A DNA stretch of 64,000 nucleotides from Salinisphaera orenii subsp. halophila YIM 95161. Its GTDB lineage: Bacteria; Pseudomonadota; Gammaproteobacteria; Nevskiales; Salinisphaeraceae. Shown one piece after another: positions 40,396-43,528 of this stretch. The DNA is taken from positions 1 to 64,000 of the forward strand of contig NZ_AYKF01000121.1 of assembly GCF_003732545.1 (NCBI RefSeq), given 5' to 3'. Position 1 is the stretch's first letter, and each line of letters begins with the position of its first letter. The notes below the pieces were generated by a model. The model was not told the origin of the DNA. It saw only the letters and a list, made by a program, of their open reading frames with translations, and made no database searches. The position numbers and the translations under genes are program-made.

Positions 40396-41682
40396 CTAAG
40401 ACATCAGATTGGGAAGAAACAGGGAGATCTCGGGGAAGGCCAGCAGCAGGCCGAGCACGATGAACTCGACGATCAGAAACGGGGCCACGCCGCGGAAGCA
40501 GTCGGCGACCGACACTCCGGTAATGCCCGAGGTGACGAAGACGTTGAGCCCGAGCGGCGGTGTGACGAGACCGATCTCGACGGTCTTGGTGATGACGATC
40601 CCGTACCAGATGCCGTCGTAGCCGAGCTGGCTGATCAGCGCGTAGGTCACCGGCACGGTCAGCACGAGGATCGCGATCTGGTCCATGAACATGCCGAGCA
40701 CCAGATAGATGAGCACGAGCACGGCGATGACCATCCACGGGGCGAGGCCGGCGTCCTGGATCGCGGCGAACAGCGACTGCGTGGCCTGGGTGAGCGTGAG
40801 GAAATAGCCGAACATCATCGCGCCGATGACGATGGTCACGATCATCACCGTGGTCGACAGCGTGTCGGCCACGGCGTCGGCAAACGCATGCACGCCGAGC
40901 CGGCGCATGAGCACGGTGATCGCCAGCGCCCCGGCCGCGCCCACCGCGCCGATCTCCGTCGGCGTGGCGATGCCGCCGTAGAGCCCACCCACCACGAGCA
41001 CCATCAGCAGCAGCACGGGCCAGACCGGCCTCAGCGCACGGACCGCGGCGCCGGCATCGAAATGCGGCTGCGCCGGCATGGCCTCCGGCCGCCGCCAGCC
41101 GATCAACAGGATGGCGATGATGTATCCGAGCGCCGTCAGCAGCCCCGGAACCAGTCCCGCCACGAGCAGCTTGCCCACCGAGAGTTCGGTGAGAATGCCG
41201 TAGATGATCAGCACGATGCTCGGCGGGATCATGATCGCCAGCGTCCCCGAGATGGCGATCACGCCGACCGACACCCGGGCGTCGTAGCCCACCTCGCGCA
41301 TGCTCGGATAGGCGGCGGCCGACATCGTCGCCGCACTCGCGGTGCTCGAGCCGATGATCGCGGCCATGAAGGCACTGGCCATCACGCAGGCCACCCCCAG
41401 GCCGCCGCGCAGCCGTCCCAGCCACAGATCGCTGGCGCGGATGACGTCGCGCGCCATGCCCGACTGCGCCATGTACTGGGCCATGAGCACGTACATCGGG
41501 ATCGTGAGAAAGACATAGGACGCCGACACGCTGTGATACACGTCGGCCAGATAGCTGGCCACGAACGGCAGCCCGCCGGTCAGATACAGACCCGTCGTCG
41601 CCGCGATCATCATCGCGAAGGCGATCGGGACCTCCAGTATCAGCAGGCCGAGCAGCACCCCCACTCCAACCGCCACGCTCAC
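40396..41682 (-). CDS. dctM: TRAP transporter large permease, DctM family
   Basis: DctM is the ion-coupled membrane channel of a TRAP importer. The 428-residue protein has about twelve hydrophobic segments and the family stretches LEVPIAFAMMIAATTGLYL, SGTLAIMIPPSIVLIIYGILT, GMFMDQIAILVLTVPV and TPPLGLNVFVTSGI. I chose the GTG at 41682, overlapping the dctQ stop by 4 bases; the frame extends further upstream through dctQ. The acyl-CoA dehydrogenase gene begins 17 bp downstream. Confidence 0.94.
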   Translation of the reverse strand: MSVAVGVGVLLGLLILEVPIAFAMMIAATTGLYLTGGLPFVASYLADVYHSVSASYVFLTIPMYVLMAQYMAQSGMARDVIRASDLWLGRLRGGLGVACVMASAFMAAIIGSSTASAATMSAAAYPSMREVGYDARVSVGVIAISGTLAIMIPPSIVLIIYGILTELSVGKLLVAGLVPGLLTALGYIIAILLIGWRRPEAMPAQPHFDAGAAVRALRPVWPVLLLMVLVVGGLYGGIATPTEIGAVGAAGALAITVLMRRLGVHAFADAVADTLSTTVMIVTIVIGAMMFGYFLTLTQATQSLFAAIQDAGLAPWMVIAVLVLIYLVLGMFMDQIAILVLTVPVTYALISQLGYDGIWYGIVITKTVEIGLVTPPLGLNVFVTSGITGVSVADCFRGVAPFLIVEFIVLGLLLAFPEISLFLPNLMS

Positions 41683-42215
41683 GAGTGCACCTCCGACGAG
41701 GCGCGGCCCCCGGCTTCGGGTTCGCCCGATTCCGGCGCGACGATATCGGTGGCCGCACGCACGAGCAGCCGCAGCGCGAGCATGCCGCAGCCGATCGGCA
41801 CCCAGACGAGCGAGGCCCACACCGGCCAGTCGATCACGCCGAAGATGGCGTCGCCGGACTGGTATTTATCGACCGTGCGCCAGCCCGAATACCAAGCGAT
41901 GGCCGCCATGATCGCGGCCGCGGCCAGCGCCCCCGCAGCGTGCAGCACACGCCGGCCGCGCGGGCCCAGCAGGCGGCCGGCGACCGACAGCCGGATGAAC
42001 GCGCCCCGCCGCTCGCACCAGGGCAGCGCGATCGTCGCCACCATGACCATGAGGTAATTCGTGGTCAGCTCGAACTGAAACGACAGCGGCGCGTTGAACA
42101 CGTAGCGCGCGACGACGTCGGCCGAGACCAGCGCCATCATGACCACGAGCGTGGCGGCGGCCAGCATGAACAGCGCGCGTTCCGCGCCCGCGTGGATACG
42201 GATGAGCAGCTTCAT
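41679..42215 (-). CDS. dctQ: TRAP transporter small permease, DctQ family
   Basis: DctQ is the four-helix companion of DctM. The 178-residue protein begins MKLLIRIHAGAERALFMLAAATLVV, and hydrophobic segments follow near residues 17-37, 52-70, 92-112 and 134-155, with FELTTNYLMVMVATIALPWCERRGAFIRL typical of the family in short form (FELTTNYLMVMV, CERRGAFIRL). The ATG at 42215 lies only 16 bp after the palindromic element at 42231-42501, so its ribosome site is close to that element. Confidence 0.9.
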   Translation of the reverse strand: MKLLIRIHAGAERALFMLAAATLVVMMALVSADVVARYVFNAPLSFQFELTTNYLMVMVATIALPWCERRGAFIRLSVAGRLLGPRGRRVLHAAGALAAAAIMAAIAWYSGWRTVDKYQSGDAIFGVIDWPVWASLVWVPIGCGMLALRLLVRAATDIVAPESGEPEAGGRASSEVHS

Positions 42216-42230
42216 GGCTGGCCGTGCCCC

Positions 42231-42501
42231 AGGGCCTGTTGATGTTTCGTACGCGCGCCGCGTTGGAGACCGCAAATCGTTGTCCGGCAAGGCGCGAGCC
42301 GCCGCGTCGTGGCGTGCCACGACCCAGGCTTGCAACGTCGCCGGGCGCGATGTGCGGCCCAACCCTTCGGGACAAGCGCTGTTGTGCGGCAATCCAGCGT
42401 TCTAGCGCGCTTGTGCAGAGTGACTGCACGGCGCGCACTACGCCTCGTCTTGCCGCACAACAGCGCTTGGCGCGGACGCGTACGAAACATCAACAGGCCC
42501 T
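42231..42501. repeat. Nested palindromic intergenic element (MITE-like) inside the TRAP operon
   Basis: The element has perfect 25-bp terminal inverted repeats (42231-42255 and 42477-42501, starting AGGGCCTGTTGATGTTTCG). Inside lie a second perfect 20-bp pair (CAAGCGCTGTTGTGCGGCAA at 42373-42392 and its complement at 42450-42469) and a hairpin GTCGTGGC/GCCACGAC at 42306-42323. It contains no credible gene. The right end overlaps the dctP stop codon at 42500-42502. It separates dctP from dctQ, unlike most TRAP operons where they are close together. Confidence 0.85.
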
Positions 42502-43528
42502 AGGCGCCGTCGCCGAGCCGCGACTCGAACGCCTCGAGCGCGGCCCGGCCGTCGAGGCCGCGATCGTCCATGCGCTCGATCCAGCGCTGCTGCGCGGCGC
42601 GGTACTTGGGCGCCAGCGCCTTCTGCATGGCCTCGGGCAGGTCGTAGATCGTCACGCCCGCCGCCTCGAACTCGGCGAGATCGTCCGCGACATCGTCGGC
42701 GAGCGTCTTCGACAGATGCGCCACCGTCTCGTCGCCGGCCTTGGCGATCGCCTGTTTCTGCGCCTCGCTCAGGTCCTCGTAGACGTCCCGGTCCATGGCC
42801 ACGGTGATGCCGAAACTGCCGAAGGCGGCGTTGCGAGACAGACTCTTGCTGACCTCCTGGAGCTTGTACGGGGCGATACTGGTCACCGGGAACAGCGCGC
42901 CGTCGAGGGTGCCGCGCTGGAGGCCGAGGTAGGTATCGGGCGCGGCCATGGAGACCGGATTGGCCCCGACCGTCTCGACGACCATATTGAGGCTGCCCGA
43001 AGAGCGCAGCTTCAGGCCCTCGAGGCCGGCCATGTCCTCGACCGGCGGCCGGTTGAGCAGCAGCTGATAGGGCGGCAGCATCACCGCGTAGACCGGCACC
43101 ACGCCGTTGTCGAGAAATTCCTGACGCAGCGGCGTATCCGCCTTCAAGGCGCTCCAGTAGGCCTGACTGGCCTCGACCACGTCGTCCACCTCGCCCGGGA
43201 GCATGGTCGCGCCGTTGAGCGGCATCTCGTCGCTGACATAGCCGATGCCGATGTAGCCCGCCTGCACCACGCCGTCATTGATCTTCTGCAGGATCTCGCC
43301 CGCCTTGGCGAGCTGCTCGTTCGGGAAATAGCGGAAATCGACCCCGCCGTCGGTATGCGCCTCGACCCGGTCCATCCAGTAGACCGTGCCCTCGCTGGAC
43401 AGAGTGTTGGACGGCGGGAACGAGTCCGCGAACATCAGCGAGGCGGCCAGCGGTGCGCTGCTGGCCAGCAGAGTCGCCATGCCCGCCGCGGCCAGGACGA
43501 GCGGCTTGAATACATGCGTCTTCTTCAT
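42500..43528 (-). CDS. dctP: TRAP transporter solute-binding protein, DctP family
   Basis: DctP captures the substrate in the periplasm and delivers it to DctQM. The 342-residue precursor has a signal peptide (KKTHVFKPLVLAAAGMATLLASSAPLAAS) seen as basic then hydrophobic residues, a first-lobe region GTVYWMDRVEAHTDGGVDFRYFPNEQL in the usual place, and LKLRSSGSLNMVVETVGANPVSM with the arginine that usually binds the substrate carboxylate. The ATG at 43528 follows GGAGGA. Organic acids are the usual ligands; neighbours point to a C4-C5 dicarboxylate, by inference. Confidence 0.92.
   Translation of the reverse strand: MKKTHVFKPLVLAAAGMATLLASSAPLAASLMFADSFPPSNTLSSEGTVYWMDRVEAHTDGGVDFRYFPNEQLAKAGEILQKINDGVVQAGYIGIGYVSDEMPLNGATMLPGEVDDVVEASQAYWSALKADTPLRQEFLDNGVVPVYAVMLPPYQLLLNRPPVEDMAGLEGLKLRSSGSLNMVVETVGANPVSMAAPDTYLGLQRGTLDGALFPVTSIAPYKLQEVSKSLSRNAAFGSFGITVAMDRDVYEDLSEAQKQAIAKAGDETVAHLSKTLADDVADDLAEFEAAGVTIYDLPEAMQKALAPKYRAAQQRWIERMDDRGLDGRAALEAFESRLGDGA

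Follow-up and report, generated by a model that had tools for sequence, protein, structure and literature searches.

The closest known kind of element to the one studied here is the Correia element (CREE / NEMIS) of Neisseria, which is non-autonomous, duplicates TA, reaches a high copy number and gives rise to folding transcripts, and which has terminal inverted repeats (TIRs) of 24-26 bp; its mobilisation by an IS5-family (IS1106) transposase has been proposed (PMC3898611, PMC2229807). RUP of Streptococcus pneumoniae is a MITE that shows TA duplication and has ends matching those of a full-length IS (PMC2229807). The ERIC / IRU sequences of enterobacteria are palindromic intergenic repeats with 5'TA that are co-transcribed, and an effect on the stability of the upstream mRNA has been reported for them (PMC2229807). 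The CIR sequences of Caulobacter and Brucella have two folded arms (PMC2229807).

We analyzed a window of 64,000 nucleotides from Salinisphaera (window genome labelled G000) and found a 269-bp element between dctP and dctQ, two genes of a TRAP transporter operon. The element represents a new family of the Correia kind and is not a Correia element itself. It is very probably, judging from its sequence, a non-autonomous MITE that an IS5-family transposase moves in trans. Like the Correia elements, the family is present in many copies, shows TA duplication and is predicted to fold when transcribed, and the TIRs of the window element are likewise 24 bp long. However, Correia elements are 100-155 bp long, whereas the Salinisphaera copies measure 257-315 bp, and the sequence, the TIR and the host differ. 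The Salinisphaera element also has a three-way fold with two inner palindromes, and no promoter motif was seen at the window copy. RUP is 107 bp long, has another TIR and is partnered with IS630-Spn1. ERIC / IRU are 127 bp long and of other sequence. While CIR lack terminal repeats, the arms of the Salinisphaera element are closed by a long terminal stem.

A preliminary description of this locus had proposed nested palindromes at 42231-42501. Both sets of arms were confirmed as perfect inverted repeats, the outer ones (42231-42255 and 42477-42501) over 25 bp and the inner ones (42373-42392 and 42450-42469) over 20 bp, and its naming of the flanking genes was borne out by protein-family matches (Table 1). 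The outermost A/T of the 25-bp arms is the flanking base, and the element's own share is 24 bp. The start of dctQ lies at 42215, leaving 284 nt between dctP and dctQ. With as many as 3 mismatches allowed, an 18-bp TIR pattern has two matches in the window, where 0.02 are expected. The element is overlapped by chance ORFs, none of which encodes a transposase.

Table 1 Features of the element and its neighbouring genes in the window.
Feature	Coordinates	Strand	Remarks
Predicted MITE copy without a gene of its own	42232..42500		269 bp; based on relatives in its own genome and across the genus
dctQ-side terminal inverted repeat	42232..42255		24 bp, perfect; outer 17 bp as in the right end of the IS5-family IS of G001
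dctP-side terminal inverted repeat	42477..42500		24 bp, perfect
Arm A of the three-way fold, an inner palindrome	42373..42469		Includes the 20-bp repeats of the preliminary description; helices 2-4
Small hairpin CCC GAA GGG (dctP strand)	42363..42371		Loop reads TTC (inverted) elsewhere among the copies
Second inner palindrome, arm B	42263..42362		Absent from the preliminary description; helices 6-9
TA of the CTAG target, dctP side	42501..42502	-	Bases 1-2 of the dctP stop codon
TG on the far side (TA in most copies)	42230..42231	-	Presumably a decayed TA duplicate
dctP, TRAP transporter solute-binding protein	42500..43528	-	Stop TAG 42500-42502; PF03480
dctQ, TRAP transporter small permease subunit	41679..42215	-	PF04290

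We then searched for further copies. The window genome contained about 40 full or partial relatives (68-93% identity), among 73 matching pieces in which self-matches of the palindrome arms are counted. All 14 Salinisphaera genomes searched had matches, while outside the genus only weak matches were obtained, in a few genomes. There were 101 TIR matches in the complete genome G008 (with up to 3 mismatches of its pattern) and 205 in G006 (with up to 2 mismatches of its pattern), and the exact 24-mer was located in S. orenii MK-B5 (NZ_AYKH01000015.1). No plasmid copies were found in PLSDB, and no Rfam family reached its gathering score for the window element. The suspicion that this is a mobile repeat with further copies was therefore upheld; the opposing picture in the preliminary description, an element present once and conserved at the same place in distant relatives, does not agree with the many copies or with the empty dctP-dctQ sites of G004, G005 and G002.

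Some other arrangements of the ends were also observed. A pair of opposed ends in G008 (870678-872901, 2.2 kb) was considered as a full-length transposon and rejected, as it contains host genes and no transposase. Elsewhere in G008 (L104, C1:2098477-2098560), opposed ends 84 bp apart may be an even smaller derivative. A diverged copy in the window genome (L033, C121:73603, from 1501) has only one recognisable end and begins where a dinB-like gene stops with TAG. An unrelated insert, bounded by the inverted repeat TTGATTATGT / ACATAATCA, interrupts the inner palindrome of this copy.

To characterize the fold, we compared the copies with each other. On the dctP strand the predicted fold reaches -197 kcal/mol (z = -12.6), and none of 200 shuffles was as good. 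The whole element forms a three-way cruciform with compensatory changes among copies. In a structure alignment of 43 copies of the 266-269 bp class, the terminal stem occupies columns 1-30/240-270, arm A columns 32-129, the small hairpin columns 131-139 and arm B columns 140-239. The loop of the small hairpin, flanked by fixed CCC and GGG, read either GAA or the reverse complement of this, TTC, as a local inversion would give. Across the 43 copies, 97.9% of the 102 pairs were kept. For 28 pairs, at least one copy had both partners changed; 17 of these pairs lie outside the TIR stem. The changes in the terminal stem track the IS variants. None of 500 shuffles reached the cell or covariation values, although this significance is overstated because the copies are related. 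These findings would suit selection on the interior fold itself, in the form of RNA or of folded single-stranded DNA, that goes further than the need of the transposase for the ends. We consider such selection unlikely, given that the structure was derived from the same alignment used to score it, that hairpin-templated correction or founder changes of subfamilies also yield paired changes, and that orthologous copies drift. The interior changes are compatible with any of these three: selection, hairpin-templated correction or subfamily founder changes.

Selection could also be imagined at the dctP locus alone, with the element serving as an RNA structure that regulates the dctPQM operon locally and sets the ratio of binding protein to permease. 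The very stable fold lies directly after dctP, and the dctP copy differs from its G012 orthologue at only 1 of 269 positions, compared to 126 of 3000 (4.2%) in the flanks. However, dozens of unrelated sites hold the same element, three relatives lack it between dctP and dctQ, and neither an intrinsic terminator nor a sigma-70 promoter motif was found at the window copy. In nine orthologous pairs between the window genome and G012, some elements were well below their flanks in divergence and others well above (at most 14.9% vs 4.0%). Since the divergence of orthologous elements can be either lower or higher than that of the flanks, no uniform constraint was seen; low divergence is not general among orthologous copies, the dctP copy is an outlier, and we rejected its low divergence as a sign of selection on this copy. 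A regulatory structure of this operon is thus quite improbable as the origin of the element.

The reading as a MITE mobilised in trans is supported by the target sites. The copies run from GGGCCTGTTG to CAACAGGCCC within a CTA/TAG context. CTA precedes the element in 49 of 92 full copies and TAG follows it in 51, and TA is present on both sides in 48; the window copy itself reads TA/TG. Four copies of the window genome were missing from the sister genome G012. At these empty sites G012 is contiguous with the joined flanks minus one TA, barring point changes and a 1-nt gap at one site, the clearest empty site reading GGCTA/GA... This pattern is in keeping with a YTAR target, in most cases CTAG, in which TA is duplicated on insertion.

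The ends of the element are shared with an autonomous-type IS in related genomes. IS5-family ISs of about 860 bp in G006, G007, G003 and G001 encode one 249-aa transposase and are bounded by the MITE's ends, namely CTAGGGCGTGTTGAGGTTTC in G006 and GGGCGTGTTGCCGTTTC in both G003 and G007; in G001 the right end reads GGGCCTGTTGATGTTTC. The partner transposases matched NF033580 (IS5 family transposase) at 267 and 258 bits (cut-off 110), and the G007 transposase matched PF13340 and DDE_Tnp_1. The terminus variants correspond as well: GGGCGTGTTGAGG is found in the G006 IS and in most G006 MITEs, with identity over 18/18 bp, and GGGCCTGTTGATG is common to the window element and the G001 IS (right end), with copies of this variant matching over 17/17 bp. 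The agreement between IS and MITE ends after these 17-18 bp, and the interiors are without convincing similarity. IS630-family transposases were tested first because of the TA duplication, but although the IS630-family ISs of the genus also show TA duplication and a CTAG context, their TIR (CTAGTGTCCTGT..) is unlike the MITE ends while the IS5-family ends match, variants included, so that IS630 was rejected as the partner and an origin from IS630/Tc1-mariner, as for RUP, is scarcely credible.

The IS5-family ISs of the relatives are the likely source of the transposase. A full-length partner IS was detected neither in the window genome nor in G012, and the complete genome G008, with its dozens of copies, yielded none at all; draft assemblies can also drop repeats such as this IS. 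Many MITE copies alongside no detected full-length partner transposase were likewise observed in G013. In G006, two of the three IS copies have an in-frame stop. In the window genome, G012 and G008 the family may accordingly be a relic or rely on a transposase that our search did not find. The full-length transposon with the same ends that the preliminary description envisaged was thus recovered in relatives, as far as the outer 17-18 bp are concerned, and not in the window genome. In relatives the transposase was recognised through the matching ends, and in the window genome it was not caught; shared ends are suggestive of mobilisation rather than proof of it.

We next compared the end of dctP between occupied and empty sites. 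Only the window genome and its close relative G012 / S. orenii MK-B5 carry the element at the dctP-dctQ site. In the genomes with an empty site, the dctP orthologues stop at or near the same codon (TAG in G004 and G002, TGA in G005), which indicates that the dctP stop is older than the insertion, and in G004 the gene ends in GAC TAG C, i.e. within a CTAG. The right end of the element does overlap the dctP stop codon, as had been described. The accompanying suggestion that dctP may owe its end, or the shape of it, to the insertion finds no support in these orthologues or in the target CTAG, which already has the TAG; the codon is rebuilt because the element inserts after TA and starts with G. 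Insertion on the existing stop left the predicted protein unchanged. A frame of at least 150 codons ends at the boundary TAG in 40 of the 92 copies, compared to 8 of the 18 CTAG sites in the window, a small baseline in GC-rich DNA where long frames are frequent. No excess was seen, and a special preference for stop codons was rejected. Elements are found on stop codons because CTAG targets are scarce in these GC-rich genomes and frequently contain a TAG stop, which the first G restores.

In the proposed mechanism, the transposase would bind the shared ends and paste the element between the TA and the G of CTAG. The target in dctP would have been the pre-existing stop codon, CC TAG G, with the leading G of the element rebuilding TAG and keeping the protein end. 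The dctP-dctQ message would gain a long, very stable hairpin right after dctP, and the two genes would lie 284 nt apart in place of about 15 nt, which would separate the translation of dctP from that of dctQ. By analogy with Correia and ERIC repeats, the hairpin could change mRNA decay (PMC2229807). The insertion may have altered mRNA decay and weakened translational coupling to dctQ; for the dctP mRNA, the preliminary description proposed that the structure may terminate or stabilise it, and no intrinsic terminator was seen.

The MITE termini were also found to adjoin other mobile elements. IS110-family elements (NF033542) abut them exactly and with the same end, GGCAAGACACAA/GGG, at five loci in G008 (L234, L240, L244, L246 and L247), three in G006 (L235, L241 and L245), two in the window genome (L238 and L242), and one each in G012 (L236) and G013 (L239). 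These insertions adjoin GGGNNTGT termini of the MITE, apart from L239 and L247, where another GGGNNTGTCG sequence takes this place. Comparison of G012 with the window genome showed one filled and one empty IS110 site. IS1111/IS110 elements pick their targets via RNA from an upstream non-coding region, and Tn21 termini and REP sequences are among the targets of relatives (PMC11187229). The upstream non-coding region of the IS110 elements seen here contains an 8-nt motif, TCAGGGNNTGTGGATG, which carries the terminus variant of the adjacent site and which we regard as a putative target guide. The motif was GGGTCTGT at four of the five sites in G008 and GGGCCTGT at the fifth, GGGCGTGT at all three sites in G006 and at one in G013, and GGGCCTGT at one in G012; IS110 copies are near-identical within a genome, so these sites are not independent.

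Based on a literature search, this appears to be an undescribed, genus-wide MITE family with a likely IS5-family partner. If its interior were selected, as a DNA substrate of transposition or as an RNA that shapes operons, the stretch between the two transposase sites would have a function of its own and would not be mere filler. RNA-guided IS110 elements also appear to use the family as a landing site; their putative guide tracks the terminus variant of the species and would offer a natural case for the study of guide change.
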